Part shown: piece by piece, positions 6,454 through 31,305 of the stretch
Numbering within the stretch: the stretch's first letter is position 1
How the letters are laid out: every line of letters starts with the position of its first letter
Virus record (IMG/VR): IMGVR_UViG_3300021962_000412
Span: 1 to 31,305 of that record
Direction: 5' to 3' (one strand)
Origin: a virus
Length of the DNA stretch: 31,305 nucleotides
The notes under the pieces: model-generated
The model's input: the letters and a program-made list of their open reading frames with translations, nothing else
Database searches by the model: none
What the model was told of the DNA's origin: nothing
Program-made: the position numbers and the translations under genes

Positions 6454-8838
6454 TTATTCTATTGTTAAGGCTTCATTTCCTTCTGTTGCTAATATATACC
6501 CTCCTTCAGTATATATGACTTCTGGTCTGTTCGTTGGCCACAATACTGGAGGAGAAATAAATCTACCACTAATGCTCTCCCCTTCTAATATGCGAATTAG
6601 TTCACACATTGTACTCTCCTCTTTTCCGGAGTCATAGTCATTGACCTTCTGAAGTCGATAGATCACTCCATTGATGTTGATAAGATTCTTGAAATCAAGT
6701 GAGTTGATATCCTGACTATCAAGCATGAAGTATCCTGTCAATTGCTTTCCATATCTACCTACAATCTCCTTGATGAATCTCTCATGATAAAGATAAAGAT
6801 TATTTGCAGTATATGAAGTTGCCTGGTAGAACACATAATCAGGTACACCGAAATTCAAATCAAATGAAGGAGATGTTATTGAATCCAAGTGACCAACGTA
6901 TGGATATTCAGTCAATGGTATTGATACTGAAGTCTCATCTCTGAGATTCCAGTCTGCTGTATGCATATCTCCAAGATAGACAATAAAGGGAGCTCCCTTC
7001 TTTGGAACAATCTGAGAAGATGAGTCCTCATTGAAGTTGATCTGGAATGATCTTGGAACAATGATATCTGTATAATCAACATCATTCATTGGAATATTTA
7101 CAAGTGCCTTCTGTGAGAATGGAAGCTCATATGTAGTGGAGTCAGTTGCAAATTGATTCTGAGAATTGATCTCATGAGATCCGTATTGCTTAAATTCATC
7201 CTCAAAGTATCTCTTGTTGTAGTAGTCATCATCATCCTTGAATTTGAATAGATATGACTTTGATGCAAAGTTGATAGTAGGAGTCACCTTCATCTCCTTG
7301 CTGTCATCCAGAAGATAAGTCCAGTCAATTGCTTCATCTGATCCATTGTAGAAATCAGAGAGAGGCTCAATCTCCATCACAGTCAAATCCTCAACAGATG
7401 GCTTGACATAAAGATTAAACATATTTACAATTCCCTTGAAGAAAGTCGCACAATCAATATTTGGAAGGAATGTTCCTGGATTGATCGTTGATCCTGCTGT
7501 CAATGTTTGACTTTGCTTCTCAGTATCAATACTTGATCCTGTGCTTAGTACCTGAGCATTGATGCTGGCATATACTCCGAGCTGTGCAGATGATATCTGT
7601 GCTTCATATGACAAATCAAGTCTGAAGCTCATCGTATCATTGATCAATACATTCAAGGTCCTTGTATAGTCAAAGCTGAAATTGATTGAAGTATTTGCAG
7701 TTAGTCCATCCAATGATCCATTGTATATAGGATCATTCGAGATCAGAGATCCATTCTTGTAGATCATCAATCTCAATTCATATGCTCCATATACTATATA
7801 TGGCAATCCACCAGGTACACTGAAATTGAAGTTCACAGTATGATCTCCATAGTAGTGGATATTGTACGTGCCATCTGTAGCAAATTCAATATTCAAGGGA
7901 GCTGTTGAAATGGCTTGACCTAATGGATCACTTGATGGAGTAGCATCTACATCATCAAAAGTCTGTATATTGAAATAAGCAGATCCTGAGGGCTCTCCTG
8001 GTTCTGATGGATTCAATACTGCACTCTGAGTATTGTCAATAAGGAATCCTCCTGCATTATTATCTTCAGCTGCATATACTGAATCATTTGCAGCATCTAC
8101 ACCTGATATCGTAGGGAATGGTCCTCCAGGATATGCAAGGAGCAATCTCTTGAATCTTTGAGTATCAAAGAAATCACTTGACCAGCTGATCCCTGCATAA
8201 GTGAACGCTTTATCCAATATCTCTCTGACAAAGAACTGAGGAGGGATGTGCTCCACTCCAAAGATATCTGGATTAGGTCTTTCAAAACCATAGTCAATAA
8301 GTCCATAGTAATATCCAAAACCTAACCAATCAGCTCCTGACTTGTTGGTGCTTGGTGATCCGTTCACAATGATATCTCCATTCCATGAGTTCTGCTGATT
8401 AGCAGCAATCAACTGATGAGTGTATTCGGACCATCCAAGCTCATTGACTTTGATCTTTGCCAGTCTGCTCATGTAGTCAATAGTCTCAGAGATCAGGATG
8501 ATGTCAAAGGTCCATGTACCCTTTAGATATCTGCACTCAGTCAACTGACAAACTCCATTGAATTCCAATAGACCATTGTGATAATATCTTGCTGTTGCCT
8601 TGATGCTTGGATCATAGTTAATCACTGAAGTCTCATATCCATTCACGCTGTCAGTGCTGGTCAATGAGAATACATCAAGCATCAACTGATAGTTGTTCTT
8701 GGTGCCTGGCAATGATATGGTCTTTGAGTTGTTTCCTTTCCTTGCAGTCAGATCCTTGATATCAGATATGTTGAAGGTCAAAGGAAATGGAACTCTCTGA
8801 TTCAGATCCACTAATATATCATTGATATATAATTCCAT
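6454..8838 (-). CDS. Large tail tip/baseplate protein
   Basis: A 794-residue protein, the longest in the window. The N-terminus MELYINDILVDLNQ followed by NISDIKDLTARKGNNSKTI is characteristic of a large tail protein found in Bacteroidetes siphoviruses directly after the distal tail protein. It contains beta-sandwich-like segments at about 280-440 (repeated Ile/Asn/Phe strands), NPGTFLPNIDCATFFKGIVNMFNLYVKPS near the middle, and a folded C-terminal part with DSQDINSLDFKNLINI and INGVIYRLQKV. It likely forms the tail tip hub or baseplate wall; it is an analogue of tail-associated proteins but no lytic motif is visible. Its start shares one base with the preceding gene's stop codon. Confidence 0.75.
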   Translation of the reverse strand: MELYINDILVDLNQRVPFPLTFNISDIKDLTARKGNNSKTISLPGTKNNYQLMLDVFSLTSTDSVNGYETSVINYDPSIKATARYYHNGLLEFNGVCQLTECRYLKGTWTFDIILISETIDYMSRLAKIKVNELGWSEYTHQLIAANQQNSWNGDIIVNGSPSTNKSGADWLGFGYYYGLIDYGFERPNPDIFGVEHIPPQFFVREILDKAFTYAGISWSSDFFDTQRFKRLLLAYPGGPFPTISGVDAANDSVYAAEDNNAGGFLIDNTQSAVLNPSEPGEPSGSAYFNIQTFDDVDATPSSDPLGQAISTAPLNIEFATDGTYNIHYYGDHTVNFNFSVPGGLPYIVYGAYELRLMIYKNGSLISNDPIYNGSLDGLTANTSINFSFDYTRTLNVLINDTMSFRLDLSYEAQISSAQLGVYASINAQVLSTGSSIDTEKQSQTLTAGSTINPGTFLPNIDCATFFKGIVNMFNLYVKPSVEDLTVMEIEPLSDFYNGSDEAIDWTYLLDDSKEMKVTPTINFASKSYLFKFKDDDDYYNKRYFEDEFKQYGSHEINSQNQFATDSTTYELPFSQKALVNIPMNDVDYTDIIVPRSFQINFNEDSSSQIVPKKGAPFIVYLGDMHTADWNLRDETSVSIPLTEYPYVGHLDSITSPSFDLNFGVPDYVFYQATSYTANNLYLYHERFIKEIVGRYGKQLTGYFMLDSQDINSLDFKNLININGVIYRLQKVNDYDSGKEESTMCELIRILEGESISGRFISPPVLWPTNRPEVIYTEGGYILATEGNEALTIE

Positions 8839-13994: not shown

Positions 13995-15029
13995 CTAAGA
14001 ACACCTCCGAACAGCGATATTGTAATAATTTTTATCTTTCTCTATTCCGATAAAGTTTCTGTTTGTATTCTTACAAGCTACACCAGCTGAGCCACTGCCC
14101 ATTGTCAAGTCAACTACTAAATCATTTTCATTACTGAAAGTTTTTATTAAATCTTCTAAAAGTAATATAGGTTTTTGAGTTGGGTGGTAACCATCATAAT
14201 CTTTTTTATATTTTAATATATTGCTTTTATATTTGTTTCCTTCCCATAGGTTGAAAGTGCTTGGATATTGGTCATTCATTTGCTTTAATAAGTTCGTTCT
14301 GTATTCAGTATCTATTTCTTTAAGTTCTTCAAAATTTTTAAATCCTTCCATCTTATCAATATTAAATATATTAATCAATTTATCATAAACTTTATTTTGT
14401 AATAAAGAAAATTGTGTTGATTTTTCAGCACCTAAAAAATGTATTTTTCCAGTTTGTATTTTATTCTGTATTTCACTTTGTTTTAATCCAATAAAATCAA
14501 CTATGTTTTTCGCGTAACTTCTTAAAGGGTGCATACCTTCAAAGTCGTGCTTTGGGTTGTTCTTACTAAATACAAGTATATCTTCATAATAATTTAAAGG
14601 TGATTTTTTAGCAGTTAAAGCATTTGCAAAATGGTCTTTTTCCCAAATCATAGAATAACTAAAAGGAATATTTGGGATAGCCTTATTTATCAATTCATTT
14701 GTAAAAGGTTGTTGAGCAAATAATATCATTTTACCATTTTTACGAAGTATTCTATTTGCAATTTCAAATATCCTCAAACTATCAATAGTATCATCCCAAT
14801 TTAATTTCCCTTTCATTCCGTGTTCTATTCCTTCTGCTTGTGCAATATTTTTAACCGTTCCATAAGGCAAATCAGTCAATATCAAATCAACTGAACCACT
14901 TTCTATTTTATCGCTTTCAATTAAGCAATCCCCGAATAACAAAGTACTTCGGCTAACAGCACCTATACAAAAGGCGGGGTTCAGTGGTTCAATCAACTTA
15001 TCGTTTTCAAATAAAGTTTTCTGCATCAT
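13995..15029 (-). CDS. Beta-class DNA methyltransferase (N6-adenine/N4-cytosine)
   Basis: 344 residues. The catalytic motif IV is TDLPYG (52-57) and the AdoMet-binding motif I, DLTMGSGSAG (307-316), lies near the C-terminus; this IV-then-I order marks the beta class. No restriction partner is nearby, so it likely modifies phage DNA to evade host restriction. It differs from its neighbours: I find no GATC word in it although GATC is dense elsewhere, codon use is more AT-rich, and its flanks carry an inverted repeat and a GTTAGC-type end. The first 30 residues (containing NPAFCIGAVSRS) overlap one arm of that inverted repeat, so the true start may be later. Target sequence unknown. Confidence 0.85.
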   Translation of the reverse strand: MMQKTLFENDKLIEPLNPAFCIGAVSRSTLLFGDCLIESDKIESGSVDLILTDLPYGTVKNIAQAEGIEHGMKGKLNWDDTIDSLRIFEIANRILRKNGKMILFAQQPFTNELINKAIPNIPFSYSMIWEKDHFANALTAKKSPLNYYEDILVFSKNNPKHDFEGMHPLRSYAKNIVDFIGLKQSEIQNKIQTGKIHFLGAEKSTQFSLLQNKVYDKLINIFNIDKMEGFKNFEELKEIDTEYRTNLLKQMNDQYPSTFNLWEGNKYKSNILKYKKDYDGYHPTQKPILLLEDLIKTFSNENDLVVDLTMGSGSAGVACKNTNRNFIGIEKDKNYYNIAVRRCS

Positions 15030-15071
15030 ATTAAATTTTCGTTTTCAAAATCCCGCCCTTCGTATAGCTGC
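14959..15071. repeat. Imperfect inverted repeat at the methyltransferase 5' end (attC-like?)
   Basis: Arms at 14959-14978 and 15052-15071 match at 17 of 20 positions when one is reverse-complemented (core GCAnCTATACnAAnGGCGGG). About 73 bases, including the methyltransferase start, lie between. The outer edges read GGCTAAC (14951) and CGTTATA (15077), each one base off the integron attC R-box forms. The arms are far more GC-rich than the surroundings. Another GTTAGC occurs just past the 3' end of the gene (about 13981). Confidence 0.55.
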
Positions 15072-15077
15072 GGAACG

Positions 15078-15323
15078 TTATATACCAGGTTTACTATGAG
15101 AATGAATATCCAGTCCTTCATATATCAATGAGAATAGTGAATTTATAAAGTCCATATTGACAGACTCTCCATTCATGAATCTATACAGCTGATAAGAGCT
15201 CACATTGTAATCATCTGCAAAGTGAATCACTCTATATCTTCCTGTTATCTTTTTTCTCAGCTCAGCTCTCATCCAGTCAGTGAGCTGCTCATCCTTAGAA
15301 AGGGAGACCATCATCGAACTCAT
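15078..15323 (-). CDS. Small HTH (Cro-like) protein
   Basis: At most 81 residues; alternative ATGs at 15314 and later. A predicted helix-turn-helix occupies about 40-60 (IHFADDYNVSSYQLYRFMNG, then ESVNMDFINSLFS), which fits XRE/Cro-type DNA-binding proteins. It overlaps the ssDNA-binding-like gene by 29 bases, so it is translationally coupled to the recombination operon. It could regulate early-late switching or the recombination operon; the target is unknown. Confidence 0.65.
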   Translation of the reverse strand: MSSMMVSLSKDEQLTDWMRAELRKKITGRYRVIHFADDYNVSSYQLYRFMNGESVNMDFINSLFSLIYEGLDIHSHSKPGI

Positions 15324-15564
15324 CTGCTATAGGTTTTGATTTGAATTCTTTCTTTGGCTCTGGTGCTGATTGGATCTCACTCTTCACATATGGCTCCCCG
15401 AATGCAGCTGAGAAATATTCTCCTGCTTTCTCTCCATGTTTGGACCATAGAGATATCTCCCATTCTTTCCCATCAATAGTCACCTTTCCTCTCCAGTCAG
15501 GATGAGTATCTTTGCTCTTGTAATTGTTGCGGAAGATTGCTCCGCTGTTGTTTTTCTGCTCCAT
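15295..15564 (-). CDS. Probable single-stranded DNA-binding-like protein
   Basis: An 89-residue protein with the pattern NNSGAIFRNNYKSKDTHPDW, then RGKVTIDGKEWEISLWSKHG and an acidic tail ending DEFDDGLPF. The beta-strand core resembles small phage proteins proposed as ssDNA-binding OB-fold proteins, and the acidic tail with a terminal aromatic residue is a hallmark of SSB tails that recruit partners. It sits between the exonuclease/ERF genes and a regulator. Assignment is by pattern and neighbours, not by a diagnostic motif. Confidence 0.6.
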   Translation of the reverse strand: MEQKNNSGAIFRNNYKSKDTHPDWRGKVTIDGKEWEISLWSKHGEKAGEYFSAAFGEPYVKSEIQSAPEPKKEFKSKPIADEFDDGLPF

Positions 15565-16185
15565 TTATTTATTGTTTAATTGATTAACGTAATTCATATA
15601 CAGCTCAGAAGCTGCATCAAGTTTCTCTATCATTTGACTCTCCAGATCCTGATCACGTTCAAAAGGAATGACAGTGATTCTCTTGTCAGGATCAATATGG
15701 TCCACTCTGTGCAGTGATAGGTTATCCCATTGACTGAGCAGATCATCATTAGTAGTGACCATGCAATATATCAGCTCAGCTGTTGGCCTGTCATAGAGAT
15801 ACATATAAGCTCGAAGCTGCCATTCATAGTCCTTGTTCATTCCATCCTCTGCAAGTGCAGGGAAAGTCTCCAGGCTCCATGATGTCTTGATATCAATGAT
15901 ATGATCATCCAGCAAGATATCGCATTCTCCTGTCATGATATCATTAATCAGTCTCTTGTCATTCTTCACATATGAAGTCATCCTCACAGCATTGAGAAGA
16001 TTGATAGAATCCTGCTCCTGTTCCTGACCTTTGATCACATACTTATTGTTGAGGTCCACATTGTATCCAAAGAAGTCCTGTTTTGCAACTGACTTGATAT
16101 AGCTCTTTGCAGTCTCTGATAAGATCTCTGACTTGCTCCTGGCATTGGTCATGATCTTTCCTATTGATGATGGGTGCCACTTCAT
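15565..16185 (-). CDS. PD-(D/E)XK exonuclease (YqaJ/RecE-like)
   Basis: A 206-residue protein. The nuclease core reads MTGECDILLDDHIIDIKTSW (about 85-104), giving the Asp of the first motif and I-D-I-K as the (D/E)xK part, followed by YEWQLRAYMYLYDRPTAEL (about 119-137) with the Q-x-x-x-Y motif of YqaJ/RecB-like exonucleases. It overlaps the ERF gene by four bases, the usual pairing of a 5'-3' exonuclease with a single-strand annealing protein. Together they would process DNA ends and promote recombination-dependent replication or genome circularisation. Confidence 0.75.
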   Translation of the reverse strand: MKWHPSSIGKIMTNARSKSEILSETAKSYIKSVAKQDFFGYNVDLNNKYVIKGQEQEQDSINLLNAVRMTSYVKNDKRLINDIMTGECDILLDDHIIDIKTSWSLETFPALAEDGMNKDYEWQLRAYMYLYDRPTAELIYCMVTTNDDLLSQWDNLSLHRVDHIDPDKRITVIPFERDQDLESQMIEKLDAASELYMNYVNQLNNK

Positions 16186-16724
16186 AGCAGTAGGATTGCT
16201 TTCTGTTGTACTTCAGTTAATTCATAGCTTGATACGGCTTTCTTGAATGCATCCACTGTCATCTCTCCAGCTGCTACCTTGTCAATCCCTTTCTGGAATC
16301 TATCTGCTGGCATCGTTGGCTTGCTCTTTGCGGCCTCATTGCCATCGTCATCCACTGCCTGCATTGACATGATTGATTGAAGAGAATACCTTCTGAAATA
16401 GGTCACAGCAGATCCGAGCTGCTGAGCATTGTTAGATACCGGAAGATCAATGAATGATTCAATCCTATCTCCAGAGTCAATATCAATGATCTGAGTTACT
16501 ACTTTATTCTCTTGAATAGGTTGAAGGAGGAGAAGTCCATTCTCCAATAGTACAGGCTCTATCACTTCCAGGAGTGCATTGAGGTCTGCATATGATTTCT
16601 TGAAATGGGGATTCGTTGAATTCTTCATCACTTTACCCATTTGATTTTTGGCCTTCCACAGTTTCATGTAGATTCCAACCACAGGAAGATCCTCTTCTTC
16701 TGTCTTTTTTGCTCTCGTTGTCAT
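16182..16724 (-). CDS. ERF-family single-strand annealing protein
   Basis: A 180-residue protein with ERF hallmarks: KNSTNPHFKKSYADLNALL (about 35-53), EPVLLENGLLLLQPI, and SAVTYFRRYSLQSIM followed by AVDDDGNEA (about 105-130). ERF proteins anneal complementary single strands and replace RecA in many phages. The C-terminal tail after about 135 is divergent. It precedes the exonuclease gene with overlap, forming a recombination pair. A TATATTTG box lies 23 bases before the ATG, so the recombination operon may have its own promoter. Confidence 0.9.
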   Translation of the reverse strand: MTTRAKKTEEEDLPVVGIYMKLWKAKNQMGKVMKNSTNPHFKKSYADLNALLEVIEPVLLENGLLLLQPIQENKVVTQIIDIDSGDRIESFIDLPVSNNAQQLGSAVTYFRRYSLQSIMSMQAVDDDGNEAAKSKPTMPADRFQKGIDKVAAGEMTVDAFKKAVSSYELTEVQQKAILLL

Positions 16725-16746
16725 ATAAAAAGGTGTTTAATTTTTA

Positions 16747-16754
16747 CAAATATA
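16747..16754 (-). promoter_or_regulatory. Putative -7 box before the ERF gene
   Basis: The minus strand reads TATATTTG, matching TAnnTTTG, in the 37-bp gap between the VRR-NUC and ERF genes. No clear -33 TTTG is visible, so the call is tentative. Confidence 0.35.
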
Positions 16755-16761
16755 AAAATAA

Positions 16762-17226
16762 TTATTGAATAATATCATACCATTCAAGAAAAGAATCGAA
16801 ATCTTTCGCAATAAAATAAAGACCTCCAGCTCTTTCAATCTTCTCTTGATAGATCTTCTGATCTTCTGACTGTCTATCCTTGCCTATCTTGACCTCAATC
16901 TTCACAGACTTTCCATTGATTGTAGCTGAGATATCAGCAGATCCTTTTGTGCCTGTTGATTTCGTATATTTTCCTTTCCCTATGGTCCTTGTAATACCAT
17001 CAACATCTCTGACTTTCTTTGGACCACGATATACTCCCATCGTATTGATTCTCTCTGCCTGATGTCCTGACATATCCAGGAACTTTACTATGCATTGAGT
17101 GAGTCCATTTGCTGTCTTATCATTCCATTTGCTTTTTGCCAGTGCTGTATATGGCACGCTGGGATATTTCTCCATGAGATAATCTCTCTCAATCTCCTCA
17201 AGGATTGCTTTGCTGATCTTGTTCAT
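16762..17226 (-). CDS. VRR-NUC domain nuclease
   Basis: A 154-residue protein. The C-terminal half holds the VRR-NUC core: GTKGSADISATINGK (about 93-107; Asp of the first motif), then VKIEVKIGKDRQSEDQ (E-x-K motif) and IYQEKIERAGGLYFIAKD. VRR-NUC proteins are PD-(D/E)XK nucleases related to Holliday-junction resolvases and structure-specific nucleases. The N-terminal 70 residues are helical, perhaps DNA-binding. It overlaps the preceding gene and lies in the recombination block, suggesting branch or flap resolution before packaging. Confidence 0.85.
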   Translation of the reverse strand: MNKISKAILEEIERDYLMEKYPSVPYTALAKSKWNDKTANGLTQCIVKFLDMSGHQAERINTMGVYRGPKKVRDVDGITRTIGKGKYTKSTGTKGSADISATINGKSVKIEVKIGKDRQSEDQKIYQEKIERAGGLYFIAKDFDSFLEWYDIIQ

Positions 17227-17896: not shown

Positions 17897-20272
17897 TTAA
17901 AAAGGTGCTTCATCTATTGGCTTAAAATCAATGTCATCCTTTGAAGGTGACTGATATGAATATTCAATCCATCTGATATTGTTGGTCTTTCCGGTCAGGA
18001 TCTTATATCCTTTATGCATTCCATAGATCTCCAGGAACTGAGAGAATTTTTTCTTTGACATCCATCTCTTCAGATCTGTATATTCTTCTGTGATCCTATC
18101 AAAGAGATCATTCTTGTATAGTGTTGTATTGACAGGAAGATTTTCATCCTCAGCCCATTCAATGAACTCTGCACAAGTCGAAGCAAAGAGCTGTCTCATT
18201 TCATGATTCACTCCGATCTGAGGGATCAATCCATTCTGCAAATATTTCTGAATGCATCCGACCATATAATTGTCAAACCTTTCAAAGTGCTCCATATCCC
18301 AGTCATCAAAAAGCTGATGACCAAATTCATCAAAAGGAGTCATCTCTCTTCCGTAGTATTCATTGATCACCAGCTCATGTCTCCTCCTCTCATGAGAGTT
18401 GCCCTGTCCTTTTATTGGATAGTTAGTACTGATTACCATCTTGGGAGAATCTTCTACAGTGAGCTTGATTGCATCCTTATTCTTTCTTTCCAATGTCATC
18501 CCCTCAGTGACCAGACTGAACTTAGTCTCAAAGTCAAAGTTTTTCTTAACATCATCGAATACCAGGATCTGAGTCTCTGGAGATACAGTCTGATAAGGAA
18601 AGCTCTTCTTGTCATCAAATGACTTCCCATCTAATATGCTGACCTTCCTGATTTGTTTAATCCCTTGAATGAATAATCCTTTTCCTGTTCCTCCTTCTGG
18701 ATTGTCTCCAATCTTTGGATCATTGAGGATCACAGCTTGATTGTTCATCTTATTCTTATAGTTAGTCATCAAGAATCCTACTGTTGACTCAAATGATTCA
18801 ATATGAGATCCTGCAATATTATTCAAAAATCTCTTATACTCATTCTCCTGGCTCCTGACTTTCTTGAATTCTCTTGGAATGATATGACTCTTCCAAATAT
18901 ATCCACTGATATCAATGTAGTCAATGAGCTCAATCTTATCTTTTGTGATCTTCACAATACCATTCTCATAGGCAATATATGAGATATGTTTTGTATCCTT
19001 GAGAATCATCAGATTGACAGTATCAAGCATCAGCAGGAACTGCTCAGAGAATAGATTCTGATAATTTGCAAAGTAAGACCATACATCATCATCCCCTCTA
19101 TCAAGAAGATAATTCAATACAAAGTCCTTGATCTTTTCCACTGATGTCTCCTGGACCTTATTTGAAGTGATCTGCACCCATGTAGGCTTCTGAGTATTGT
19201 AAGGGAAGTATTTTGCAAATCCATTCCTCTCCAGAAAGAACTTATACTCCTTTGTCAGTACCTTGATCTTGCTTCCATTCTTTGTCTGTTCAATGATCCA
19301 GAAGTCATTCGCATCCTTTGATTCCTTAATCTGATCATATGTATCATCATTGATCTGATAGGTCTGCTTGATATGGTCCTTTCCTTTTGGAAGATCTCTC
19401 TTGATCCTGGTGATCTTCTGATAGTCCTCAAAGAATTTGCTGTTTGCAACTCTTTGCTTGTATGCATTCCTGACCGTTGTTCTTGCTTCTCTTTCAGTGA
19501 AGTCCTGATCTGTCAATACATGATTAATGATATACTCCTCAGCTCTATACTGATTCACTCCATACTCACAGAAGGCACCAGCGAGAGCAAAGATATATTG
19601 ATTCCTTTGTCCTTCAGTGAAGTTGATAGACCAATTGAACTCCATGATTTTCTGAATGATAATATCACTATCACTGATTGGAAGGATGGCCGCTTTCTCC
19701 GATTGACTGAATCCTTCATCTATCAATACAGGATTAAAGACCTCAGCATTTTCATTCACGTAGATATTAGGATCATATGATTCAAAGCATACTCTTGATA
19801 CATCACAATTCGATCTATCAAAATAATCATATTGGAATTCATTTGCAAAGGCTTTGAAGTATTTCTCATGCTCTTCCTTCGTACATTCTGGAATTCTGAT
19901 GACTGCCTTGATCCCATCACCTGATGGAGATATGAATGCTGTAATAACATGAGGATTAGAGCAAAGATCTGAGAAAAAGAATTTCAATGTAGTTCTGCTT
20001 TGAAAATTGTCAAAGTCAATAACGCATAGACCTGAGTGATTGTCAAGTCCATCCTTTGATCTTTCCTTGAATTCTCCAGCAAAGAGAATGCAGGGAAGTT
20101 TTTTCTTCAGTCTTGATCTCTCCTCCTTGTCTTTAGAATCTCTGATCTGTTTAATCAGCTCCTTATTTTTTCCTTCTTTGATTCTCTGGATACATTTCTC
20201 CAGAGTAATGATATGAGGGATCTCTTTGCTCTGAAATAAATCCCTAAAAATTGTTACTTTTTTATCAAGCAT
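17897..20272 (-). CDS. VirE-N type primase fused to SF3 helicase
   Basis: A 791-residue replication protein. Residues about 55-180 form a BT4734/VirE-N archaeo-eukaryotic primase-like domain: CVIDFDNF (83-90; metal-binding D-x-D), SPSGDGIKAVI (115-125) and DRSNCDVSRVCFESYDP (152-168). Residues about 205-275 resemble a primase C-terminal linker domain. A second half is a superfamily 3 helicase: Walker A EGGTGKG (526-532), Walker B ILVFDD (569-574), sensor VISTNYP (613-619) and Arg-rich RR at about 629-631. It would prime and unwind DNA at the phage origin. The iteron region just upstream is the likely origin. Confidence 0.9.
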   Translation of the reverse strand: MLDKKVTIFRDLFQSKEIPHIITLEKCIQRIKEGKNKELIKQIRDSKDKEERSRLKKKLPCILFAGEFKERSKDGLDNHSGLCVIDFDNFQSRTTLKFFFSDLCSNPHVITAFISPSGDGIKAVIRIPECTKEEHEKYFKAFANEFQYDYFDRSNCDVSRVCFESYDPNIYVNENAEVFNPVLIDEGFSQSEKAAILPISDSDIIIQKIMEFNWSINFTEGQRNQYIFALAGAFCEYGVNQYRAEEYIINHVLTDQDFTEREARTTVRNAYKQRVANSKFFEDYQKITRIKRDLPKGKDHIKQTYQINDDTYDQIKESKDANDFWIIEQTKNGSKIKVLTKEYKFFLERNGFAKYFPYNTQKPTWVQITSNKVQETSVEKIKDFVLNYLLDRGDDDVWSYFANYQNLFSEQFLLMLDTVNLMILKDTKHISYIAYENGIVKITKDKIELIDYIDISGYIWKSHIIPREFKKVRSQENEYKRFLNNIAGSHIESFESTVGFLMTNYKNKMNNQAVILNDPKIGDNPEGGTGKGLFIQGIKQIRKVSILDGKSFDDKKSFPYQTVSPETQILVFDDVKKNFDFETKFSLVTEGMTLERKNKDAIKLTVEDSPKMVISTNYPIKGQGNSHERRRHELVINEYYGREMTPFDEFGHQLFDDWDMEHFERFDNYMVGCIQKYLQNGLIPQIGVNHEMRQLFASTCAEFIEWAEDENLPVNTTLYKNDLFDRITEEYTDLKRWMSKKKFSQFLEIYGMHKGYKILTGKTNNIRWIEYSYQSPSKDDIDFKPIDEAPF

Positions 20273-20311
20273 AGCCTATAAAGATAATATTTTTTATTTC
20301 AACTTCTTTAA

Positions 20312-20498
20312 AATGTGTATTTTTTGCTCAATGTGTACCTAATGTGTACCTAAATGTGTACCTAAAAAAACTCAATGTTTTCAAGGGCTTCAGAAGTTTT
20401 GGTACACTTGGACAGATTGAAAGCGATTTTTTGACCACCCCCCTAAAAAAAAAAAAAATTTCTCTAAAGGGAGTAAGGGAAAAGAAAGTGTACCTAAA
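20312..20498. other. Iteron cluster, candidate replication origin/operator
   Basis: This 226-bp intergenic gap (20273-20498) between the winged-helix gene and the primase-helicase carries three copies of ATGTGTACCT at 20331, 20342 and 20354, spaced 11 and 12 bases (about one helical turn). A variant AATGTGTAT lies at 20312, an inverted GGTACACTT at 20401 and a further AAGTGTACCT at 20487. Between them is an A14 run (20446-20459) next to a C6 run. Iterons plus an AT-rich stretch upstream of a primase-helicase suggest an origin; an operator for the neighbouring HTH protein is the alternative. Confidence 0.6.
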
Positions 20499-20759
20499 TC
20501 ACTCATAAATCTGCACCCATTCAGTGATTGAATTCATGAAATCATACTCCTCCAGAATGACGATTCCCTTCTTATTGAATGATACTTCAATCGGACAATC
20601 AAACTCTTCTCTGAGCATTGATACATCCTTCTCAATTGTGCTCCTGGAATATTCACTCATCATGATATAGTTCAATCTTGAATGTAGCTGATTGTATGTG
20701 TGAGGCTTTATCTTGAGCAGATATACTATCACTGACATTCTTCTGAGCTTCTCTCTCAT
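20499..20759 (-). CDS. Winged-helix DNA-binding protein
   Basis: An 86-residue basic protein. The pattern HTYNQLHSRLNYIM ... SEYSRSTIEKDVSMLREEFD, followed by a two-strand wing (CPIEVSFNKKGIVILEE), fits a DeoR/WYL-type winged helix where the recognition helix is SRSTIEKDVSML. The stop codon touches the distal iteron and it overlaps the DnaA-like gene by four bases. It is likely to bind the adjacent iterons to control replication or early transcription; that link is inference. Confidence 0.7.
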   Translation of the reverse strand: MREKLRRMSVIVYLLKIKPHTYNQLHSRLNYIMMSEYSRSTIEKDVSMLREEFDCPIEVSFNKKGIVILEEYDFMNSITEWVQIYE

Positions 20760-21178
20760 ATGGCTTCTCTTAATAGTTCCTTTTTGATCATTCCTGATAT
20801 CTTCATGAATCCTTCATGATCAGTGCTGTGCATCTTTATCTGCAAGGTGATTAGATCTCCTTCAGTATCCAGGACCTTGAGCATAGCTTCATCCTCCTTG
20901 ATATGTTTTATTGAGAATCTATTCACTTGCTCAAATAGCTCAGAGATATAATTCAGATAGATCCAGTCTCTATTCTTGATCCATGTATTGTGCTGCTTGA
21001 TTCCGTATATCACAGATGAATGATTCACCTGGAATACTTCTGCAATCCTTTCAAGAGTCATCTTCTTTCTGTATAGTAGTGAATAGATATAGAATCTCTT
21101 GTATACTTTATCTCTCTTTCTTGATCTTGTCAATAGATCATGCTCAACTGCGAGCTCTATTATTTCGTTGATTGTCAT
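20756..21178 (-). CDS. DnaA domain IV-like DNA-binding protein
   Basis: A 140-residue protein. Residues about 28-62 (YIYSLLYRKKMTLERIAEVF, then VNHSSVIYGIKQH) resemble the C-terminal DnaA box-binding domain: the signature (D/N)H(S/T)(T/S)V(I/L)xxIK is present at about 50-60. The AAA+ ATPase domain of DnaA is absent. Stand-alone domain IV proteins in phages may bind DnaA boxes or host origins to redirect replication. It lies in an operon with the winged-helix protein just upstream of the iteron region, so it may act as an initiator accessory factor. The iterons share TACACA with the DnaA box half-site. Confidence 0.75.
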   Translation of the reverse strand: MTINEIIELAVEHDLLTRSRKRDKVYKRFYIYSLLYRKKMTLERIAEVFQVNHSSVIYGIKQHNTWIKNRDWIYLNYISELFEQVNRFSIKHIKEDEAMLKVLDTEGDLITLQIKMHSTDHEGFMKISGMIKKELLREAI

Positions 21179-30319: not shown

Positions 30320-31279
30320 TTATGCTCCAGTCCAAACACCGATCTGATTCAAGAATGGTACCTGTACACCTGCTCTGAACTTAGAACGTACATAGATCAC
30401 ATCATCATCCTGAGAATACCATAGATCATAGTTATCAAAGTCAGAAGAAAGATCTGTTCCAAATACGAAGTGAGATGCTTTTCCTGTGTAGATCAAATCA
30501 GTTGTATTCAATCCTGCAACCTTTACTACTCTCATATCAGTTCCTGGTACGATCACTTCATCCATAGTAGCGATCTGTGCAGGAGAATAGTGGAAGAAAT
30601 TCAAGTCAACAAGATTCTTCATCAAGTAGTTGAAGTTCTCACGACCAGTGAAGCATACGAAATCTCCAGCTTCAGCAACATTCTCAGGAGTTGTAGTGAA
30701 AGCCTCATAGAATACATCATATGCATTCGTTGAATCGATAGCTGCAACAGCAGAAGCATTCAAATCAACACATCCCGCAGCAACTGTCAAGATAGTTGAG
30801 AATCCATCCATCCACTGAAGGTTGTTTGTACCTGTTGCTTTATTTCCTCTCCAGATCAACTTATCTAATTCAAGAGCATGAAGGCTCAATAGATAGTTAG
30901 TGATCTGAGCTTCAAAAGGAAGTGACTTATCCTCAGCAGATGCTCCTGGTCTAAGAGCTAACTGAGTCCAGAATCCTGCAAGATCCTTCTGACAGAATGA
31001 CTTCATATATCCAAGAGTCTCAACAGCAATAGCACGATCAGTGAAAACTGTATCTCCTGATGGAGTCATCGCACAATCACCAGCTTGATAAACGATAGAA
31101 TCATCCATCAACTTGATCTCTTGAGATCCTTTGATCCCTTCTTGAATTGTGATATATCCTAAGGTCTTAGCCTCAGTAACTGATCTTGTGATAAGATCTT
31201 CTCTTTGCTCGTCAACATACGCTGCCAATCCTGATACATCGTAGTCGAACTTTGTCTGAATGTACTTTTTTAGTGACAT
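30320..31279 (-). CDS. Major capsid protein (HK97-fold)
   Basis: 319 residues. N-terminal helix MSLKKYIQTKFDYDVSGLAA, then QREDLITRSVTEAKTL. The body contains FTDRAIAVETLGYMKSF, FEAQITNYLLSLHALELDK (spine-like helix) and TGRENFNYLMKNLVDL, and ends in LSSDFDNYDLWYSQDD and KFRAGVQVPFLNQIGVW. Order, length and the preceding protease-scaffold pair fit HK97-fold capsids of Bacteroidetes siphoviruses. The gene spans the contig junction: its 5' part is also at positions 1-101. A leader AAAACAAAGTAAA precedes the ATG. Confidence 0.9.
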   Translation of the reverse strand: MSLKKYIQTKFDYDVSGLAAYVDEQREDLITRSVTEAKTLGYITIQEGIKGSQEIKLMDDSIVYQAGDCAMTPSGDTVFTDRAIAVETLGYMKSFCQKDLAGFWTQLALRPGASAEDKSLPFEAQITNYLLSLHALELDKLIWRGNKATGTNNLQWMDGFSTILTVAAGCVDLNASAVAAIDSTNAYDVFYEAFTTTPENVAEAGDFVCFTGRENFNYLMKNLVDLNFFHYSPAQIATMDEVIVPGTDMRVVKVAGLNTTDLIYTGKASHFVFGTDLSSDFDNYDLWYSQDDDVIYVRSKFRAGVQVPFLNQIGVWTGA

Positions 31280-31305
31280 TTTACTTTGTTTTTTTTAGTT
31301 GTTTT
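31179..31305. repeat. Terminal direct repeat, right copy
   Basis: This is the right-hand copy of the 127-base exact repeat that opens the window. It contains the 5' part of the capsid gene and the spacer to the scaffold gene. It should be collapsed with the left copy when the genome is circularised. Confidence 0.95.

Follow-up and report, generated by a model that had tools for sequence, protein, structure and literature searches.

What purpose do the short repeats crowded into a single intergenic region of a phage genome serve, and which protein reads them? The locus lies in IMG/VR virus record IMGVR_UViG_3300021962_000412, of which the whole stretch of 31,305 nucleotides was analysed and is hereafter called the window. 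Because its ends carry a 127-bp direct terminal repeat (positions 1-127 are identical to 31179-31305), the window probably represents a complete genome of ~31.2 kb, either circular or circularly permuted. All of the replication genes named here lie on the minus strand, and the repeats occupy the 226-bp intergenic region between the gene for a small HTH-like protein and that for a primase-helicase. The host of this phage and of the related phages described below is probably a member of Bacteroidota, because of the BT4734-like domain of the primase-helicase and partial matches to named phages. Downstream of the primase-helicase gene, 13995-17226 (minus strand) encodes an ERF-type annealing protein, an exonuclease-like protein, an N6/N4 DNA methyltransferase and a possible nuclease/resolvase-like protein (weak match). 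A 259-aa frame with a protein-like look was also noticed at 1544-2323 on the plus strand, opposite to that of nearly all other likely genes.

A sequence-only reading of this locus had proposed a replication origin with a nearby initiator, and had described three repeat units spaced 11 and 12 bases, a half-unit, an A14 tract and, upstream of the primase-helicase, genes for an HTH-like protein and a DnaA domain IV-like protein. Each of these features was located as described (Table 1). In the real window, the array at 20331-20364 is the only place where an 11-mer is present three times within 250 bp, and none of 300 dinucleotide shuffles of the window held any such 11-mer; the repeat array is confirmed as real and not a product of chance. 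Two more exact GTGTACCT words on the minus strand, at 6841 and 7813, are inside genes and look like chance occurrences. The A14 tract is the only run of A or T of at least 12 in the window and has a C6 run close beside it (20438-20443). Units are found on both sides of the core that contains this A14/T14 stretch, in the window and in its relatives. GC skew, which had been put forward as a check for an origin, gave no origin signal around the element when computed together with AT skew at fourfold sites.

Table 1. Positions of the predicted origin element, its parts and the neighbouring genes in the window
Feature	Position	Strand	Basis and remarks
Predicted origin element, whole	20299-20498	-	Intergenic; limits approximate; layout as in ~60 related loci, long runs identical in L001
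Three exact direct units, ATGTGTACCTA on + (AGGTACACAT on -)	20331-20341, 20342-20352, 20354-20364	-	Start-to-start 11 and 12 bp; other relatives have their direct units in this place
Outer unit before the core, AAGTGTACCTA on + (AGGTACACTT on -)	20486-20496	-	One mismatch; in the place of the single pre-core unit of relatives
Inverted unit after the core	20399-20409	+ (orientation opposite to other units)	Two mismatches; kept in L001
Degenerate half-unit, ATGTGTATTTT on + (AATACACAT on -)	20313-20323	-	Three mismatches; one base differs in L001
Conserved core: CCCTTACTCCC, AT tract, TAGGGGGGTGGTCAA on -	20431-20484	-	nhmmer core profile, 34.6 bits, E 3.5e-8; the window is itself among the seeds of the profile
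A14 run (T14 on -), in core	20445-20458	+	Proposed melting stretch
TATCTTTA, possible primase-helicase promoter box	20279-20286	-	Read from sequence; identical in L001
Primase-helicase, 791 aa, proposed initiator	17897-20272	-	Pfam BT4734-like_N, PriCT_1, weak DUF5906
C-terminal winged helix, aa 717-773, proposed unit-binding domain	17954-18124	-	AlphaFold; co-change with unit
DnaA domain IV-like protein, 140 aa, probably not the unit reader	20756-21178	-	Pfam Bac_DnaA_C, 25.5 bits, cut-off 31.5; minority of relatives
Small HTH-like protein, 86 aa	20499-20759	-	HTH_11, E 0.028, weak

We compared the window with its nearest relative (L001), whose primase-helicase is 88-89% identical and in which the DnaA-like gene, the HTH gene, the element and the primase-helicase gene follow one another in the same order. 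The DnaA-like and HTH proteins of the two phages are only 58% and 65% identical, respectively. All five units are kept in L001; a 56-bp run that is identical between the two spans the three direct units, and elsewhere in the intergenic region the G tract and inverted unit are likewise covered by identical runs. At the DNA level, the unit-bearing 150-bp stretch is 87% identical, compared with 63-77% for the DnaA-like and HTH genes and 72-92% for the primase gene.

In the DNA preceding 36 related primase-helicase genes, we then found one layout in which the letters change: a unit is followed by a conserved core (CCTATACyCCC / AT tract / TAGGGGGG) and then by inverted and direct units. The letters of the unit differ by lineage (AGTACACATT, CGCAACACATT, AGTGCGAAGTT and others) while the layout is constant. 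In core coordinates, the forward unit is typically at about -16, the inverted units at about +65 and +75 and the direct units from +117 to +160, with values for the span of the first pair clustering at 89-93 and 99-101 bp; the triplet of the window corresponds to the last of these clusters, the direct units. A core profile built from 36 seeds matched ~60 of 82 related loci, beside the primase-helicase gene and generally 190-320 bp before it, whereas it had no match at E < 1 in 80 control loci, which had been fetched from IMG/VR only for two GGTACACA words and nearly all of which are without this primase-helicase (L148 is one locus of the control search that has it). A deposited phage, MW202828, whose primase-helicase is 41% identical, carries upstream of the gene flanking inverted repeats around CCCCCC / AT / GGGG, as read by eye. 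As judged from these matches, the element belongs to many related, mostly uncultivated phages. Absence of the repeats from close relatives, which the sequence-only reading had named as grounds against an origin, is thus not what we found, and the origin reading is considerably strengthened because the closest relative retains the repeats and dozens of others carry, beside the primase-helicase gene, the conserved element to which they belong.

Several loci depart from the common form. In the L074 group the core is present without clear units; L074 (11729-11777), L079, L080, L223, L228, L234, L243 and L244 carry it without recognisable flanking units and beside long TATATA stretches, and in L074/79/80 it is 6-7 kb downstream of the start of the primase-helicase gene. 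In L041 (near 1391-1434) a C run instead comes after the G run of the core, and in L034/L056/L057 a G run is directly followed by a C run (GGGTACCCCC, GGGGGTAGCCCCC). Three matches of the core pattern to GTDB genomes (L245-L247) were set aside; they have no primase-helicase in the fetched stretch and look like chance.

The units could alternatively be operators, by which the primase-helicase or another protein controls the primase-helicase promoter, the true origin being elsewhere. Indeed, the direct units of the window lie just upstream of the possible promoter box TATCTTTA, which resembles TAnnTTTG and is possibly a Bacteroidota-type -7 box, and several relatives have the element between a terminator-like hairpin and the leader of the gene. 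However, L042, L052/55 and L074/79/80 have the core downstream of the gene, with core and units kilobases downstream in L042, L052 and L055, and the core is inverted in L005, L030 and L043/44; an origin therefore fits better than an operator. Moreover, an operator has no need of a conserved core with an AT tract, and autoregulation and origin function can coexist. We accordingly regard control of the promoter, with an origin at another place, as unlikely.

The leaders of the primase-helicase genes in relatives also displayed interleaved stems (H-type pseudoknot, both stems at least 7 bp), which we observed in 15 of 52 distinct leaders and in 0 of 520 shuffles. They are found in the last ~125 nt before the start codon (for example, in L006, L015, L017, L047, L056, L060, L289, L304 and L323), and are absent from the window and L001. 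The letters of the stems vary by lineage; the end of the second stem usually lies 8-25 nt ahead of the start codon, and T runs often follow it. A search of eight sources against Rfam gave no match.

If the element is an origin, its initiator could be the DnaA domain IV-like protein, alone or together with the HTH protein, as the sequence-only reading had supposed. The gene is adjacent to the element in both the window and L001, TnCACA is common to the unit and to half of the DnaA box, and an NHSSV/DHSTV motif of the protein matches the DnaA recognition helix. The DnaA-like protein of the window falls below the Pfam cut-off, its L001 homologue is above it, and the HTH call is weak. What we found was a match to the C-terminal domain of DnaA only, and no full DnaA with an AAA+ domain; an IMG/VR search with the protein gave no match. 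Nor do DnaA boxes appear enriched in the window, which has no exact TTWTNCACA, 57 one-mismatch sites compared with 75 expected, and no DnaA-box cluster of the DnaA/oriC type. The distribution of the protein argues against this role as well. It was found in 20 of 82 loci, and PF08299 (DnaA_C) matched 18 of 50 whole related records but had no match anywhere in the other 32, many of which are ~30 kb or longer, although any of these may be a fragment and highly divergent DnaA-like proteins can escape the HMM. Furthermore, among relatives whose DnaA-like protein bears the conserved DH[AST][ST] motif there are units that lack CACA, such as TTGGGCAAA in L042 and CAATTATTTT in L052. On the grounds of this distribution and of the CACA-less units we rejected the DnaA-like protein as binder, and the HTH protein likewise, because no locus other than the window and L001 was found to encode it. 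The primase-helicase, by which the examined loci were fetched, is the only protein that they all have in common, and, as described below, the unit follows the winged helix of this protein. Initiation by the DnaA-like protein is therefore very improbable; of the earlier proposal, the origin has gained strong support from the conserved element, and the choice of these two proteins as initiator is probably wrong.

We analyzed the co-change of the primase-helicase with its unit on a tree built from residues 1-690 only of 39 representative distinct proteins, counting changes by parsimony in 525 variable columns. This tree-aware scan replaced a segment-wise comparison of identities that rested on only 11 same-unit pairs. 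For the ACATT-side half of the unit, residue 741 was the best of the 525 columns, with 6 of 6 changes coinciding (P = 2e-6; co-change P values are approximate, and unit halves and classes were assigned by hand from the DNA), and columns 739, 702 and 731 were near the top; residue 21, in the N-terminal part, co-changes almost as well. Residue 741 is K in all 23 phages with ACATT units and in none of the 7 with CGAA units, where it is N or R in every case, and residue 739 is T, S or N with ACATT and K or Q with CGAA or CGATAA. CGAA units occur in separated places of the tree (e.g. L060 beside L046, L007/L026 beside L006, L307-312 and L313). The top columns for the other half of the unit included 760, 762 and 767 as well as several in other parts of the protein. 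Of all 30-residue windows in the protein, 736-765 was the best for either half, and an excess of 738-770 over 1-690 at least as large as the observed one arose in 5 and 4 of 1000 random branch sets for the two halves, respectively.

As a control for linkage, the proteins of the linked genes c2 (beside the element), c1 and c4 were scanned in the same way. For the ACATT-side half, the winged helix scored 0.333 compared with 0.112 for c2, and c1 and c4 were also lower. For the other half the contrast with the linked proteins was small, and c4 was slightly above the winged helix. These patterns suggest that the primase-helicase itself, and not the DnaA-like protein, probably reads the repeats.

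The scan was made without using a structural model, and the co-changing residues map to the start of a helix and to the wing of a predicted winged helix. In the AlphaFold model of the full protein (mean pLDDT 82), this domain comprises residues 717-773, with a recognition helix at 740-754 and wing strands at 756-763 and 766-773, and the same elements were obtained when the C-terminal domain was modelled in isolation. Among solved structures, the SaPI5 primase-helicase has the closest fold (7ola, Z 16.8, 393 residues, model 322-767, C-terminal part included); next come vaccinia D5, ASFV PrimPol and NrS-1, the last of which covers 338-772 (Z 12.9). With the isolated C-terminal domain, Foldseek returned only weak matches, mostly to winged-helix regulators (E at least 0.08), and a PDB sequence search with the family profile gave no match. 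Pfam, AlphaFold and the fold match together indicate a primase, an SF3/D5-type helicase and a C-terminal winged helix in the candidate initiator.

This architecture resembles that of known initiators. In SaPI Rep and Cch2, it is the C-terminal domain that recognises the iteron origin (PMC7581432), and every PICI origin has two sets of iterons with an AT-rich stretch between them (PMC6092414). The present system shares with them a D5/SF3-type helicase, fused here to a primase as in SaPI5, and two sets of units that flank an AT-rich stretch next to the gene; its C-terminal domain may likewise recognise the origin, as the co-change of the winged helix with the unit suggests. Because the element fits this plan, we consider that 20299-20498 is likely to be an iteron replication origin whose units are bound by the C-terminal winged helix of the adjacent primase-helicase. 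Unlike the SaPI and PICI elements, however, this one is found in phages and not in satellites, has its own conserved C-tract/AT/G-tract core, and has unit letters that vary widely between lineages. In addition, the SaPI/PICI origin is 3' of the initiator gene, whereas the element is usually upstream of it (in the window and most relatives) and downstream only in the loci listed above; we therefore class it as working like the SaPI/PICI kind, and not as a PICI.

The origin of phage P4 likewise has iterons. Its alpha protein, with a C-terminal winged-helix origin-binding domain (as cited in a passage of PMC10516667), combines primase and helicase in one protein in the same manner, but has another primase domain family and belongs to another host group. 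An iteron origin of the SaPI/PICI and P4-alpha kind is the best reading of the element. The NrS-1 primase-polymerase is also a phage protein with primase and helicase parts, which starts at specific template motifs (TTTGGTTA, GTG; PMC8718748); however, those motifs are single-strand priming sites, whereas the present units are double-stranded and stand in an array. ORF904 of pRN1 unites an AEP primase, an SF3 helicase and a winged helix, with its origin beside the gene, but that origin is a stem-loop without an identified protein-binding motif (PMC4234260), whereas here there are clear units and no support for pairing within the core. A comparable origin, in which the initiator recognises a core hairpin and not the units, is the least probable reading, even though the left C tract is complementary to the right G tract and stem-loops have been proposed for pRN1 and for a phage with an AEP primase, an SF3 helicase and a winged-helix protein (PMC4234260), since the arms of each element pair no better than arms swapped between elements (P = 0.21, 46 elements), which gives no support to a stem conserved via compensating changes, some cores lose the G run (L041), and it is the letters that are conserved, not the pairing.

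Computation gives the element, its conservation, the predicted fold and the co-change of unit and winged helix; from these results we infer binding, melting, priming and origin activity as follows. The start of the recognition helix (residues 739-741) would read the ACATT-side half of the unit, and the wing (residues 760-767) would contribute to the other half. The oppositely oriented units that flank the core would position rings of the helicase, perhaps a pair of hexamers, around the AT tract. This tract would melt between the C and G tracts, and the primase domain would then prime on the strands thus exposed. In addition, the primase-helicase may control its own gene through the direct units nearest the promoter. 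On this reading, a repeat array that had no explanation gives way to a whole class of predicted origins in phages, for each of which a candidate initiator can be named and a unit read.

More tentatively, with somewhat less than even confidence, we propose that a large group of phages, most of them uncultivated and with Bacteroidota as probable hosts, may carry an exchangeable origin cassette, in which the C/AT/G core is kept and the unit halves (AGTAC or CGCAA with ACATT, CGATAA or CGAA) are swapped independently, each tracked by its own surface of the winged helix. If this is true, the cassette would amount to a naturally occurring recognition code that sets replication specificity, and its driving force may be the avoidance of cross-replication between co-infecting phages or satellites.
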